A stretch of 38,472 nt of DNA, from positions 1 to 38,472 of the forward strand of contig JAUNQJ010000003.1 in assembly GCA_030536265.1 (NCBI GenBank), read 5' to 3'. The notes beneath the pieces are model-generated. The model searched no databases and had not been told where the DNA came from. It was given only the letters and a program-made list of their open reading frames with translations. Below are positions 6,586-13,578 of the stretch, one piece after another. The DNA comes from Erysipelotrichaceae bacterium. GTDB taxonomy: Bacteria > Bacillota_I > Bacilli_A > Erysipelotrichales > Erysipelotrichaceae. The number at the start of each line of letters is the position of its first letter. Position 1 is the first letter of the stretch. A program made the translations under genes and the position numbers.

Positions 6586-6894
6586 TTATATAGCTTTTAC
6601 TTTTAATGTTTCGCCATCTGGGCCTGGAGTAGAATTCAAGTACTCAACGATTTCTTGTCTTCTATCAGGTTTACAAGGTTTGCAACTAACTGTATCAGTA
6701 GACTTTCCTACTAAAGCAGCAGCTAAGCCAGAACATCCAGGATAGCCACAACCACCACAGTTATAACCAGGAAGCATTTCAGTTACTTTAGCTTCTCTTT
6801 CATCTACTTCAACATAGAATACTTTAGCAGCAACACCGAGCATAACACCAAGTAAAGCGCCAATAATTAACATCGTCAATGCAGCATTAATCAT
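6586..6894 (-). CDS. rnfB: RnfB, short form lacking the ferredoxin domain
   Basis: 102 residues, much shorter than typical RnfB. Residues 3-25 are the N-terminal membrane helix (Gly-rich), followed by the RnfB Fe-S motif LPGYNCGGCGYPGC (Cys46, 49, 54) and Cys71 (with Cys74), enough to bind one [4Fe-4S]. The downstream 2[4Fe-4S] ferredoxin-like domain of canonical RnfB is missing: the frame simply ends after KVKAI and is followed by the operon terminator. No remnant of a second domain is visible. In Rnf, RnfB takes electrons from reduced ferredoxin; here the entry path must differ. A strong AGGAGG lies at the end of the preceding small gene. Confidence 0.9.
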   Translation of the reverse strand: MINAALTMLIIGALLGVMLGVAAKVFYVEVDEREAKVTEMLPGYNCGGCGYPGCSGLAAALVGKSTDTVSCKPCKPDRRQEIVEYLNSTPGPDGETLKVKAI

Positions 6895-7066
6895 TTTTTA
6901 TTTCCTCCTTTAATTTAGGATTATTAATGCACGAAGTGATATGACAATCACCACATGCGGCATTTAAATTTTCACATCCCTCTGGTTTTGGAGTTTTAGC
7001 GTTTAAAATATAACCTACAACAACTAAACTAGCCAACACAACAAAGAGAATTATTGCTGGAAGCAT
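6887..7066 (-). CDS. 59-residue Cys-rich membrane protein in the rnf operon, NqrM-like
   Basis: One N-terminal TM (about residues 3-22), a short Lys/Pro linker and a soluble tail with four Cys: GC at 31, then ACGDC at 38/41 and SC at 46 (C-x6-C-x2-C-x4-C). Its ATG overlaps the rnfA stop (TAATG) and its stop overlaps the rnfB start, so it is part of the operon and translationally coupled. TM plus four spaced Cys resembles NqrM (DUF539), the small factor needed to assemble the iron centre between NqrD and NqrE of Na+-NQR; RnfA and RnfE are their homologues. Assignment is by architecture and context; direct homology is untested. Confidence 0.75.
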   Translation of the reverse strand: MLPAIILFVVLASLVVVGYILNAKTPKPEGCENLNAACGDCHITSCINNPKLKEEIKND

Positions 7067-7638
7067 TAAGCAATACCAGCTAATCCTGCAAGAGCAAGAG
7101 CCATTAAGCCAGCAACAACTAAGGCGATTGGATTACCCTTCCAAGTAGGATTTGTATCAGCAGCATCTAGTCTTTCTCTAATGCAAGAGAAGATATATAG
7201 AACTAGCATAAAGCCAACTGGTACAGCGATTGAATTGACGATTGTTTGTATTAAGTTGTAACCTTCAGAAATATTATTTTGAGTTACATATAATACTGTA
7301 CAGTTTGTTGTAATTAAAGGAAGATAAACACCTAAAGATTTGTATAAACCAGGTGAGAACTTCTTTAAGAACATTTCAACAAATTGAACAAATGCAGCAA
7401 TAACAAGAATAAATGAAATTAATTGCATGTATTCAATACCAAATGGTACAAGAACTAAATAATATAAAGCATAAGTAATCATACTAGAAGCAAAGATTAC
7501 AAATATTACAGCAAGTCCCATACCAACTGCAGACTTAGAGTTTTTAGAAACACCTAAGAATGGACATACACCTAAGAATTTAGCAAGTACGATGTTATTA
7601 ATTAAAATAGCACCAATGATCATAGAGAATAGATTCAT
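7066..7638 (-). CDS. rnfA: Rnf complex subunit RnfA
   Basis: 190 residues, six predicted membrane helices, usual length. Contains the RnfA/NqrE signature LAKFLGVCPFLGVSK near residue 20 with the Cys that binds the intramembrane iron centre, and TTNCTVLYV near residue 112 with the second Cys. With RnfE it forms the membrane electron-transfer core that couples ferredoxin:NAD+ oxidoreduction to ion pumping. Good Shine-Dalgarno AAGGAGG overlapping the end of rnfE. Confidence 0.96.
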   Translation of the reverse strand: MNLFSMIIGAILINNIVLAKFLGVCPFLGVSKNSKSAVGMGLAVIFVIFASSMITYALYYLVLVPFGIEYMQLISFILVIAAFVQFVEMFLKKFSPGLYKSLGVYLPLITTNCTVLYVTQNNISEGYNLIQTIVNSIAVPVGFMLVLYIFSCIRERLDAADTNPTWKGNPIALVVAGLMALALAGLAGIA

Positions 7639-7639
7639 A

Positions 7640-8278
7640 TTACTTTACCTCCTTCTTACTTGAATTACTTCTCAATTTTGCAAATAGTGCAGCGAAGCAA
7701 GCAAACGCTAAGAATGCACCAACAGAAGTTGAGAAGAAAGAAATCTTATATGGTTCAAGAGCAGGAATAGCAATCTTGAAGATTTCTTGACTAGCATCAA
7801 ATGGATTATGGAATACAAGTCCCATAGTGCTTAAGAATTCTCTAACAATAGCAAGACCTACAATTGCGATTGTATAACCTAAGCCCATGCCTAAACCATC
7901 AATTGCAGAAGCAAGAATACCATTTTTGTTAGCGAATGCTTCAGCTCTTCCAAGAATGATACAGTTAACAACAATTAATGATAAGAATGCACCTAAAGAA
8001 ACATATAGTTCAGGCATAAATGCATGTACTAACATTTCAACAATTGTTACAAGAGAAGCGATGATAACAATGTATACTGGGATTCTTATTTCATCAGGAA
8101 TAATTTTTCTCATAGCTGAAATAATGCAGTTAGATAAAATTAATACGATGATTACACATAAGCTCATACCAATTGCAGAATCAATAGCACTTGATATAGC
8201 TAATGTAGAACACATACCTAGATATAAACCAAAGACAGGATTTTCTTTAATTAGACCGTTTTTAAAATTTTTCCACAT
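7640..8278 (-). CDS. rnfE: Rnf complex subunit RnfE
   Basis: 212 residues, homologous in fold to RnfA (inverted partner), with about six TM segments. Signatures: NPVFGLYLGMCSTLAIS (Cys near 23) and VNCIILGRAEAFA (Cys near 106), the paired Cys positions for the shared iron cofactor. The C-terminus is basic (KLRSNSSKKEVK). It has its own AGGAGG and sits between rnfG and rnfA in the canonical C-D-G-E-A-B order. Confidence 0.95.
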   Translation of the reverse strand: MWKNFKNGLIKENPVFGLYLGMCSTLAISSAIDSAIGMSLCVIIVLILSNCIISAMRKIIPDEIRIPVYIVIIASLVTIVEMLVHAFMPELYVSLGAFLSLIVVNCIILGRAEAFANKNGILASAIDGLGMGLGYTIAIVGLAIVREFLSTMGLVFHNPFDASQEIFKIAIPALEPYKISFFSTSVGAFLAFACFAALFAKLRSNSSKKEVK

Positions 8279-8291
8279 AATTATTTTCCTC

Positions 8292-8801
8292 CTATCCTAG
8301 TTCAGGGAATACAGCCTTAGCTGCAGCAATCATTCCCTGCATAGCTTTTGATGTTACTGTAGAACCAGAACGTAAATCAACATCTTGATCTAAAGTTTTA
8401 CCGATATATAAAGAGTTGATTGCATCGTCTTTGAAGTTCTCAGCACCAAAGCCGTTTGTTTCTTGTTGCTCAAGTGGTACAAGTTTTTGAATTGTTCCAT
8501 CATAATCGAAGCCAACAAGAATTGTAATACCAGAAGAAGAATAGCCCTTGCCCCAAAGTTTGAAAATGTAGCCTTGACCATCTGCTTCATAAATTCCAAG
8601 AATTGTAGATCCATCAACATACTTATCACCGACTGGTGTAAAGTCTGCACCTGGATACATTAATTCTAAGTTTGCCTTTTCAGCTTTAATAGCAGCTTCT
8701 TGAATTAGAGGCTCTGTAACAGAATTTACATAACCTAATACAAGTCCAGAAATTGCACTAACGATTCCTAGGAATAAAACTAATGTTAATATCTTTTTCA
8801 T
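8292..8801 (-). CDS. rnfG: Rnf complex subunit RnfG (covalent FMN)
   Basis: 169 residues. N-terminal TM (about 4-24), then an extracytoplasmic FMN-binding domain. The flavinylation motif SGSTVTS (145-151) marks Thr148 as the residue esterified to FMN by ApbE; ETNGFGAEN corresponds to the conserved ET-x-G-x-G region. The gene begins 1 nt after the rnfD stop, and its Shine-Dalgarno AAGGAG lies in the end of rnfD. No apbE is present in the window. Confidence 0.94.
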   Translation of the reverse strand: MKKILTLVLFLGIVSAISGLVLGYVNSVTEPLIQEAAIKAEKANLELMYPGADFTPVGDKYVDGSTILGIYEADGQGYIFKLWGKGYSSSGITILVGFDYDGTIQKLVPLEQQETNGFGAENFKDDAINSLYIGKTLDQDVDLRSGSTVTSKAMQGMIAAAKAVFPELG

Positions 8802-8802
8802 A

Positions 8803-10266
8803 TTAGTTAGCTCCTTCTAGTGCTCTTCTAGCTGCAGCGATTGCTGAATAGCTTGAGAAAGTTGCACTTGCATATGTATCAACTTCATCATCTAAGCCTT
8901 TACCAACGAATTGAGCTAAGAAGCCTTCGTCGTAAATCTTATCACCGATACCTTCTGTATCTTTAAACTTAGTGATTTCCATAGATTTAATTACACCGTC
9001 TTCAACAACGATATTAAATCTATTCTTACCACCTTCGTAGTTGAATCCTTTAGCAACAACATCATATGTATTACCATCAACAGATTTAACTTCTGAATTA
9101 GTGTAAGAATCATCTAAACCAGGAATACCTTCAGTTGTAATCTTGATTGTTTCTCCACGTTTATCAGCATCAAATTCAGGTAATGCATAAATTGATTTAT
9201 AAGAATTCTTTGTTAAACCTGTTCCGCATAATGCGATAGCAGCAACAAGTACTACTAGATATGCAGGAATAACAATGTTGAATTTCTTAGCGTTGTCTAA
9301 TTGGTTACCATCAGTAATCTTTTCGATTACACAAGTTAACATATTAGCAATTAAGATTGAGAATACAACACCTTCTGGTAATGAAGCAAATAATCTAATT
9401 AATACAGTTAAAATAGCAGCAACACCAGCGAAGATAATTCTTCCTACTCTAGTGTTAGGATTAGTAACTGGATCAGTTAGCATAAATACTGCACCAAATA
9501 AAATACCACCAGTTGAAATAAATGCTAGAGAATAAGCAATTCCTATACCATTTAATACACCAATTAATGTTGTACCAACAAAGATAACTCCTACATATAC
9601 TGCTGGAACTCTCCAGTCAATTACTTTAGTAATTGCTAGATAAATTGCTACAGCAATTAATAATATAGTAGAAGTTTCGCCAATTGCTCCTTCGTATAGA
9701 CCAAAGAATAAATTCTTTAATCCACCGAAGTCTTCTAGATAAACAGCAAAATCTGCTTGTTTAATTAACCAACCAGCAGAAGCAAATGTATTAGCTGGAG
9801 TAGCTCCAGATAAAACATCAGTAATCTTATTAGCAGCAAATGATGTTCCTAAGATTGCTCTACCAACACCAGCTGGGTTGAAAATGTTTTGACCAAAACC
9901 ACCGAATACTAATTTACCAAAGAAGATAGCAATAATAGTAGCGATAGCAATTGCATATGGATGAGTATCATAAGTAACTGTTAAAACAAGGATAATAGCA
10001 GTAACCCAACCAAATGAGTTCATTAAATAATCTAAAATATTTTTTTCTTTCGTTGCAAGTGCCCAGATAGTTTCTGTAGCAAATGCAGCAACAACTGCAA
10101 CAACCATTAAGATAATAGCATTAATTAAATAAGCTTTACCTAATGTGAATGCATGATATAAACCAAATGCATAAACTACTAGTAGACCAATAGTTAAGCG
10201 AAGCATTATCTTTTGAGTAGACATTGAATCACGAGCATTTGGATTTGCACGATATTTAATTTCCAT
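8803..10266 (-). CDS. rnfD: RnfD with an extra C-terminal RnfG-like FMN-binding domain
   Basis: 487 residues against about 310-350 for ordinary RnfD. Residues 1-330 are a normal multi-TM RnfD/NqrB-type subunit with the flavinylation motif SGATP (153-157, Thr156). After an additional TM (about 331-348) comes an outward-facing domain (about 360-487) that ends DTEGIGDKI...YASATFSSYSAIAAARRAL, the pattern of FMN_bind domains: KDTEGIGDK matches the ET-x-G-x-G region, and SATFSS (467-472, Thr469) the flavin acceptor. The complex would therefore hold two RnfG-like domains in addition to RnfD's own flavin. The reading frame is open throughout. SD AGGAGG precedes the ATG. Confidence 0.93.
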   Translation of the reverse strand: MEIKYRANPNARDSMSTQKIMLRLTIGLLVVYAFGLYHAFTLGKAYLINAIILMVVAVVAAFATETIWALATKEKNILDYLMNSFGWVTAIILVLTVTYDTHPYAIAIATIIAIFFGKLVFGGFGQNIFNPAGVGRAILGTSFAANKITDVLSGATPANTFASAGWLIKQADFAVYLEDFGGLKNLFFGLYEGAIGETSTILLIAVAIYLAITKVIDWRVPAVYVGVIFVGTTLIGVLNGIGIAYSLAFISTGGILFGAVFMLTDPVTNPNTRVGRIIFAGVAAILTVLIRLFASLPEGVVFSILIANMLTCVIEKITDGNQLDNAKKFNIVIPAYLVVLVAAIALCGTGLTKNSYKSIYALPEFDADKRGETIKITTEGIPGLDDSYTNSEVKSVDGNTYDVVAKGFNYEGGKNRFNIVVEDGVIKSMEITKFKDTEGIGDKIYDEGFLAQFVGKGLDDEVDTYASATFSSYSAIAAARRALEGAN

Positions 10267-10278
10267 ACTTCTTCCCTC

Positions 10279-11547
10279 CTATTTTCCTACTAATTTTTTA
10301 GCTCTTCTTACGTTTTCTGTAACATCGATCTTACTTGGACAAACATAAGAACACATACCACACTCAACGCAAGTGTTAGCTTTTAATTTAACTAAACGAT
10401 CTTTATCTTTAGCTTTATAAGCAGTAACAATGTTTACTGGTTGTAAGCCTGATGGACAATGTTCTGAACATGTTCCACATCTTAAACACTTAATTGGATT
10501 AATTTCTTCATATTTATTAACAAGTACACAATTTGTAGTTGGTGTTGTAGAAACTTCATCCTTAGTGACTGACATACCCATCATTGGGCCACCAGCAACT
10601 AACACTATTTGTTCTTCAATATAACCGCCACATGCAATTACTAAATCGTGGAATGATGTACCAATACGACATCTAACATTGTGTTGTTTTTCAATTCCAT
10701 TACCTGATACAGTAACGATTTTTTGATAAATTGGAGAACCTTCTTTAGCACTTCTTGCAAGTTCAATTAAAGTAGTAACGTTAGAAACAATTGCACCAAC
10801 TTCAATTGGAAGTTTGTCATATTCTTTCTTTAATACTTCTCTTACTAAAGTTCTTTCCCAACCCATTGGATATACATCAGGTACAGGTCTAACTTCAACA
10901 AATTGATTACCTTCAAATAATGCTTTTAGTTTTCCAATTAATTCTTTCTTGTATTCTTTAATACATACATAAGCTTTGTGTGCACCAGAAGCTTGAAGAG
11001 CAAACTTAACACCTTGTTTTAAATAATCTAAGTTCTCCTCGATTGTTCTAGCGTCAGCAGTGATATATGGTTCACATTCAACTGCATTGACAATTAATGT
11101 TTCGCATTTATCAGTACTATATTTGATATATGCAGGGAAACCAGCACCACCTTGTCCTAGTAGTCCGATTTCTTTCATGTAGTCTACGATTTCTTCTTTA
11201 GAAGCATCTTCGTTTAAGAATTTGCCTGCAGCTTTTGTATCTTTGTGATCGTTTTCGATTACAACATGATCAGCTGGTCTTAAACTACATGTTTGTTTTT
11301 TCTCGATTGCCTTTACTGTTCCAGACACTGAAGAAAAAATTGGAACATAGAAATGATCATCTCTTTTACCAATGATGTCTCCGATTTTAACTTTATCTCC
11401 CTCTTTTACTAAAGGAGTGATAACAGCAGCACCGTTAACCAAAGGAATAGAAACTATATCAGCATCAAGATCTAAAATATCGTTATGAGCTGTTAAGTCT
11501 TTATGACCTTCAATATGTTTCCTCATTTCGCCTATTAAAAATGACAT
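10279..11547 (-). CDS. rnfC: Rnf complex subunit RnfC
   Basis: 422 residues. Peripheral NADH-side subunit. The Gly-rich nucleotide/flavin motif GLLGQGGAGFPAYIKY is followed by the second signature AVECEPYITAD, and near the C-terminus are two [4Fe-4S] motifs, CLRCGTCSEHCP and CVECGMCSYVCP. I choose ATG at 11547: AGGAGG ends 7 nt before it, while the in-frame TTG two codons upstream leaves only 1 nt spacing. First gene of the rnf operon, following the pgi terminator. Confidence 0.95.
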   Translation of the reverse strand: MSFLIGEMRKHIEGHKDLTAHNDILDLDADIVSIPLVNGAAVITPLVKEGDKVKIGDIIGKRDDHFYVPIFSSVSGTVKAIEKKQTCSLRPADHVVIENDHKDTKAAGKFLNEDASKEEIVDYMKEIGLLGQGGAGFPAYIKYSTDKCETLIVNAVECEPYITADARTIEENLDYLKQGVKFALQASGAHKAYVCIKEYKKELIGKLKALFEGNQFVEVRPVPDVYPMGWERTLVREVLKKEYDKLPIEVGAIVSNVTTLIELARSAKEGSPIYQKIVTVSGNGIEKQHNVRCRIGTSFHDLVIACGGYIEEQIVLVAGGPMMGMSVTKDEVSTTPTTNCVLVNKYEEINPIKCLRCGTCSEHCPSGLQPVNIVTAYKAKDKDRLVKLKANTCVECGMCSYVCPSKIDVTENVRRAKKLVGK

Positions 11548-11603
11548 AAGCAATCCTCCTTACCTGTTTTATTTTACTATATAATTAATCTATTTTTATA
11601 TAA

Positions 11604-13326: not shown

Positions 13327-13578
13327 ATGGAAAAACAAGAGAAAATAAATTTAATATTAAAATCTATAGAAAAAGTAAGACCATACCTACAAAGAGATGG
13401 CGGTGACGTTGAATTTGTAGAGCTTACTGATGACAATATTGTTTATGTAAAAGTATATGGTGCATGTGTTGGATGCCTAATGCTTGACCAAACACTTAAA
13501 GATGGAGTTATGTCTATCATCATGGACGAAGTTCCAGAAATTGCTGATGTTAGACTTGCAGAAATTGAACCAAAATAA
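13327..13578 (+). CDS. NifU C-terminal-domain Fe-S scaffold/carrier protein (Nfu)
   Basis: 83 residues, a complete stand-alone Nfu domain. It has VRPYLQRDGGDVEFVEL and the cluster-binding Cys pair in VKVYGACVGCLML (C-x2-C). It carries [4Fe-4S] or [2Fe-2S] clusters to apoproteins, likely relevant to the Fe-S rich Rnf complex nearby, although it has its own promoter. One of only a few plus-strand genes here. Confidence 0.93.
   Translation: MEKQEKINLILKSIEKVRPYLQRDGGDVEFVELTDDNIVYVKVYGACVGCLMLDQTLKDGVMSIIMDEVPEIADVRLAEIEPK

Follow-up and report, generated by a model that had tools for sequence, protein, structure and literature searches.

The rnf operon of an Erysipelotrichaceae bacterium (contig JAUNQJ010000003.1) poses a question: what is the function of a 59-residue open reading frame (ORF) lodged between rnfA and rnfB? 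The window, i.e., the whole stretch of 38,472 nucleotides that was analysed, carries all six Rnf subunits (A, B, C, D, E and G) together in one operon, in the gene order rnfC-rnfD-rnfG-rnfE-rnfA-ORF-rnfB, with every gene on the minus strand. RnfB, RnfD and RnfG score below the NCBIfam cut-offs, yet each matches the right family and Pfam domain. The initial annotation had placed the ORF at 6887–7066, had given no strand, and had read it as an NqrM-like assembly factor. The gene is indeed present there, on the minus strand, and the junctions are as that annotation had described them: the start of the ORF is coupled to the rnfA stop via TAATG, and its 3' end overlaps rnfB by 8 nt. The features of the operon are as follows.

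6586–6894, minus strand: rnfB, 102 aa, a transmembrane (TM) segment and one PF04060 Fe-S domain (domain and family profile matches)
6887–7066, minus strand: the small Cys-rich, single-TM ORF, 59 aa, founding member of a conserved family (sequence)
6904–6909, minus strand: AGGAGG, the ribosome-binding site of rnfB, within the ORF (sequence)
6929–6976, minus strand: Cys tail C-x6-C-x2-C-x4-C of the ORF (Cys31, 38, 41 and 46), with the invariant core Cys38/41/46 (alignments A1 and A5, Cys census)
6998–7063, minus strand: predicted TM helix, ORF residues 2–23 (AlphaFold2 helix and charge bias)
7066–7638, minus strand: rnfA, 190 aa, with Cys25 and Cys113 (TIGR01943, above cut-off)
7640–8278, minus strand: rnfE, 212 aa (family profile match)
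8292–8801, minus strand: rnfG, 169 aa, FMN_bind (domain and family profile matches)
8803–10266, minus strand: rnfD, 487 aa, with an additional C-terminal FMN_bind domain (domain and family profile matches)
10279–11553, minus strand: rnfC, 424 aa (TIGR01945, above cut-off)

Is so small a frame a gene? A single-sequence search with the ORF (E ≤ 0.01) found matches in 136 of the 195 genomes of the window's family, and a profile made from 30 rows (A1) found them in 118 of the 392 genomes of a wider sample. Every genome listed in this “phylum” sample belongs to the window's own class; Clostridia were covered by L096 and the plasmid-collection records L212–L214 only. Conservation across so many genera rules out a chance ORF. 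The initial annotation had staked its proposal on such conservation, which was clearly found.

The family also follows rnfA closely. By the criterion used in the wider sample (TIGR01943, E ≤ 1e-30), rnfA was present in 132 of the 392 genomes: 115 had both genes, 17 had rnfA alone and 3 had the ORF alone. The last comprise two weak matches (G298 and G512) and one divergent protein with no adjoining rnf (G393). Within the window's family, the sample held the ORF in 29/29 rnfA-positive and 0/12 rnfA-negative genomes. Of the 129 profile matches, at least 103 immediately follow an rnfA among the 150 rnfA places listed, which do not include those of eight rnfA-positive genomes. The Fisher p obtained for these co-occurrence counts takes no account of relatedness. 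A survey of rnf operons for a small Cys-rich TM ORF between rnfA and rnfB, as initially suggested, bore out its presence: at 80 named rnfA loci on genome contigs (L031–L110), phmmer detected an ORF-like frame in 73. At L097 and L104, the matching frame passes through assembly N. The seven loci without such a frame are two that end at or just past rnfA (L039 and L105) and five in which an RnfB of 268–283 aa stands directly behind rnfA (L106–L110). A few long frames were checked for fusions to RnfA or RnfB; in G018 (L164), the ORF is its own separate frame with upstream read-through. Searches with the ORF returned no match in PDB sequences and, by tblastn, none in the plasmid collection. We conclude that the ORF represents a family of accessory proteins, as yet without a name and widely conserved, that belongs to a distinct branch of Rnf and is found in many Bacilli.

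Does this family belong with NqrM? In its excerpted text, a 2025 review of RNF and NQR describes NqrM as the maturation factor of NQR and names no Rnf counterpart; for installation of the intramembrane [2Fe-2S] cluster, it offers NqrM for NQR alone (PMC12174285). The work of Kostyrko on NqrM is taken here as relayed in excerpts of that review and of PMC6209661. We recognised no Rnf counterpart of NqrM in the open-licence literature, in which a term search of PMC12786226 turned up no mention of Rnf. The two proteins are alike in size, in their single N-terminal TM helix followed by a short basic linker, a first Cys and a Cys tail, and in being encoded with an NQR/RNF-type complex. However, the partner of the ORF is Rnf and its slot lies between rnfA and rnfB, and the suggested HMM comparison did not uphold kinship. 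PF04400 (DUF539; curated cut-off 22 bits), against which two annotated NqrM proteins scored 78.7 and 80.4 bits, had no match in the window ORF at E ≤ 1, none among 30 family members at E ≤ 5, and none in 25 genomes (the window's own and 24 further) at E ≤ 1. An hhalign comparison with nine aligned NqrM rows gave a probability of 20.6%, aligning the TM helix and first Cys. When the columns were shuffled 150 times, with TM and soluble parts kept apart, the full-length score was reached by 3/150 shuffles, but the soluble Cys part scored 8.3, equal to the shuffle mean of 8.3, and was reached by 61/150. The NqrM motif is GSCGG...CxC or CxxC, with GSCGG invariant in 9/9 rows; the ORF family lacks it and has PEGC...CxxC-x4-C instead. 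Although the common layout and the full-length score speak for true NqrM/DUF539 homology, at the level of sequence it is already contradicted, and we give it hardly any credence. Of the initial proposal, what stands is that a conserved Cys protein with one TM helix, linked to Rnf, is encoded between rnfA and rnfB; NqrM kinship fell away.

The single TM helix and the C-x6-C-x2-C-x4-C motif were confirmed, with the refinement that only Cys38, Cys41 and Cys46 are essentially invariant. We took a census of 120 distinct members with lengths below 140 and E ≤ 1e-4, identical proteins being counted once. Erysipelotrichaceae loci dominate this set, and some genomes occur in two collections. CxxC followed by four or five residues and a third Cys was found in 119 of them, and the exact spacing C-x6-CxxC-x4-C in 94. 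The exception is L184, whose paralogue reads CVSCHG and is without the third core Cys. In 13 members, the first Cys is missing, there being no Cys in the 14 residues that precede the core; the outer Cys vary in number and spacing, and forms of ~35–40 aa have three or four Cys. N22 and P28 are invariant in alignments A1 and A5, as are all three core Cys, and a linker, N-x-K-T-P-x-P-E-G-C, is conserved in the family. AlphaFold2 predicted helix 2–23 confidently (block mean pLDDT 96, 97 and 85); the Cys tail, modelled alone, had a pLDDT of ~60 and no confident fold. Because K/R residues are enriched after the TM segment in 106/120 members, the tail is probably cytoplasmic by the positive-inside rule. 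The helix and this charge bias together indicate a single N-terminal TM segment with a C-terminal Cys tail.

With which kind of Rnf does the family travel? In a tree of 61 RnfA rows, all short-RnfB rows fell into one 46-row clade (support 96/93). As called, RnfB in this clade has 89–149 aa, except in L145 (187 aa) and L146 (183 aa), which are nested inside it and have the ORF too; lengths above ~112 aa probably come from upstream start codons. Outside the clade, RnfB has 199–429 aa and begins 2–27 nt behind rnfA, or is absent in NQR-like operons. The ORF tracks this one Rnf clade, in which RnfB is mostly without its ferredoxin module and about 100 aa long. Canonical Rnf (Clostridia, Fusobacterium, Shewanella, L212–L216) shares the six subunits (five complete in some stretches) and the RnfA Cys, but its long RnfB directly behind rnfA leaves no room for the ORF. 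The window's RnfB has PF04060 alone and no C-terminal multi-[4Fe-4S] ferredoxin (Fer4) domains, a condition common to most of the Bacilli-type Rnf clade.

On the RnfA tree, the link between the ORF and short RnfB arose once. It thus counts as one event, not as repeated evidence, and the mutual dependence of the ORF and RnfB trimming is not demonstrable from the clade alone. A plain substitution of the ORF for the ferredoxin domain of RnfB is weakened by L145 and L146, in which a longer RnfB and the ORF coexist. RnfA Cys25 and Cys113 are kept in 61/61 aligned RnfA/NqrE rows, with or without the ORF. According to the excerpted review, inner helices of two subunits supply four Cys to the [2Fe-2S] cluster (PMC12174285); the assignment of Cys25 and Cys113 as such ligands is our own.

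What distinguishes the 17 genomes that have rnfA and no profile match? Four (G412, G499, G506 and G520) have long RnfB frames of 265–292 aa; operons were inspected in G506, G412 and G520, the last with an rnfA split into two frames. In seven others (G210, G249, G285, G290, G416, G431 and G536), the rnfA match is divergent and NQR-like, and we took these genomes as NQR-only, on inspection of the operon in G290 (L165), which has an nqrB-C-D-E-F-like order without rnfB, and, for the rest, on their scores, their genus and RnfB matches that were weak or lacking. Another four (G253, G355, G388 and G492) do carry, between rnfA and rnfB, a mini-ORF of ~35–40 aa with a TM segment and CxxC-x2/3-C, which frame inspection revealed and the profile, at E ≤ 0.01, did not. 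In G414, the slot holds a divergent ORF (E 0.096). Among the short-RnfB genomes inspected, only in G303 was no ORF counterpart found anywhere. The RnfA of this genome (L157:3965-4660) is extended at its C-terminus by an acidic stretch and directly abuts the short rnfB. The NQR-like nqrB-C-D-E-F sets of three Bacilli (L165, L166 and L167) show no nqrA in the stretch, and PF04400 is absent from these genomes.

The gene is not confined to the operon. In ten inspected genomes that keep Rnf (G330, G366, G385, G392, G467, G468, G478, G480, G488 and G529), it lies away from rnf beside unrelated genes, and rnfB stands directly behind rnfA. Further Rnf operons without the ORF between rnfA and rnfB occur in G218, G288, G310 and G243, genomes that have the ORF at another Rnf operon and carry one to three copies genome-wide. 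This arrangement fits a trans-acting factor and would be unexpected for an obligatory cis-encoded subunit. Two paralogues (L184:5708-5851 and L145:3648-3848) are found near genes that, by sequence reading, look like copper ATPase/CsoR-type genes.

We also asked what the family most resembles. Against nine aligned FeoB-associated Cys-rich peptides, the profile probability was 86.6–89.3%; against the TM + CxxC-x4-C stretch of nineteen short RnfB proteins, it was 80.6–90.5%. In both comparisons, 0/150 shuffles reached the score, in the full-length and soluble versions alike. These are resemblances rather than memberships, and the shared TM + CxxC layout may be convergent. FeoB-associated peptides are likewise small single-TM proteins with a CxxC-type Cys tail, but the ORF lies in rnf and not by feoB, and it has the additional conserved linker. 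The Cys spacing differs as well: the motif Cx3-5Cx2-3Cx6-8C, said in the excerpted source to be commonly tied to iron binding (PMC8749426), does not fit a family in which 94/120 members have the spacing given above. Membership in FeoB_associated (PF12669) was rejected: the best score among 10 proteins scored was 20.0 bits (L092) against a curated cut-off of 27, with weak matches in 14/30 members and none in the window ORF. Like the RnfB TM segment and its PF04060 [4Fe-4S] domain, the ORF has a TM helix followed by CxxC-x4-C. However, the window ORF has no PF04060 match, the fourth Cys ~16 residues downstream is absent, and the gene adjoins a real rnfB.

What, then, does the protein do? We tentatively lean toward a membrane-tethered factor that handles iron or Fe-S units for short-RnfB Rnf, with a role like that of NqrM and no common descent, a reading that could readily prove wrong. 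At the membrane surface, the predicted cytoplasmic Cys tail would bind iron or a labile Fe-S unit and would pass it to the intramembrane [2Fe-2S] site of nascent RnfA/RnfE or to the RnfB cluster; the product would thus serve in maturation or repair. Through translational coupling of rnfA, the ORF and rnfB, it would be supplied as the complex assembles, and detached copies would act in trans. Its working mode would be that proposed for NqrM, in a separate, unnamed family. Insertion of iron into RnfA/RnfE is one possible activity. Pointing to iron handling are the presence of rnfA in 115/118 ORF-positive genomes, the cytoplasmic placement of the tail, the detached copies and ORF-less Rnf operons, the variable outer Cys, the lack of a confident fold of the tail alone, and the likeness to FeoB-associated peptides above shuffles; on the other side, the match to the FeoB_associated profile is weak. 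The main weakness of a maturation role is the existence of ORF-free Rnf and NQR with the same RnfA Cys: the four long-RnfB and seven presumed NQR-only genomes lack a profile match to the ORF, and PF04400 was absent in the five tested, so the intramembrane [2Fe-2S] site can evidently be filled without either protein. NqrM poses the same puzzle, as three of the control genomes, those of E. coli, Thermotoga maritima and Methanosarcina acetivorans, have RnfA matches and no PF04400 match.

Strict confinement to the short-RnfB clade is also compatible with a subunit role. The main and more exciting rival is a seventh, electron-transferring Fe-S subunit, in which a cluster held by the tail on the cytoplasmic side would do some of the work of the lost ferredoxin module of RnfB. 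The short RnfB of all but two of the 46 rows in the ORF-bearing clade, the position of the ORF before and overlapping rnfB, and its likeness to the RnfB stretch argue for such a subunit; we nevertheless consider it doubtful, as the fourth Cys is missing in 13/120 members, three or four Cys are present in the mini-forms, L145 and L146 combine the ORF with an RnfB of 183–187 aa, detached genes occur as do Rnf operons with no copy beside them, and the tail has no confident fold. Rather unlikely, too, is the fuller claim of an undescribed seventh Rnf component, by which the ferredoxin input of RnfB was trimmed clade-wide and a separate membrane-anchored Cys-cluster protein provides a new electron entry or exit beside RnfA/RnfE/RnfB. 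If true, this Rnf branch would exchange electrons with the cytosol unlike the solved complexes. The minimal size, the confident TM helix, the conserved N22 and P28 just past it, and mini-forms that retain little beyond TM and Cys motif would instead suit a small structural subunit that steadies the RnfA/RnfE/RnfB membrane interface left by a trimmed RnfB, with the Cys as structural metal sites or contacts. Packing alone, however, needs no near-invariant CxxC-x4-C, and with detached copies in existence we judge this improbable. Still further down is a role in metal or thiol stress, by which a protein riding with Rnf would sense copper, sulfide or iron or give protection against them: the paralogues in L184 and L145 lie near CsoR-like and copper-transporter-like genes, but such contexts occur in two genomes only and most copies are in rnf operons, which makes this highly improbable.

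Either outcome matters, whether iron handling by a dedicated Rnf factor or an extra subunit in a branch where the known module for electron input is gone from RnfB. The family is also a testable gene in culturable hosts, e.g., Holdemania (L046, L047 and L049).

Several features of these operons were observed in passing. In two genomes, an rnfD-G-E-A-B set is without a recognised rnfC (L178 and L182), and directly beside it are two CydA/CydB-like proteins, presumably of a cytochrome bd (L178:13000-18451 and L182:1285-6839). The RnfD of the window has an extra C-terminal FMN_bind domain, and the RnfD and RnfG of its relatives reach several hundred residues longer; multi-flavinylated RnfG is already described in the excerpted source (PMC8238504). 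ApbE is encoded elsewhere in the window's genome. Finally, an 83-residue protein with a NifU-like domain (13327–13578, plus strand) is encoded 1.8 kb from the rnfC start, divergently from its minus-strand neighbours.
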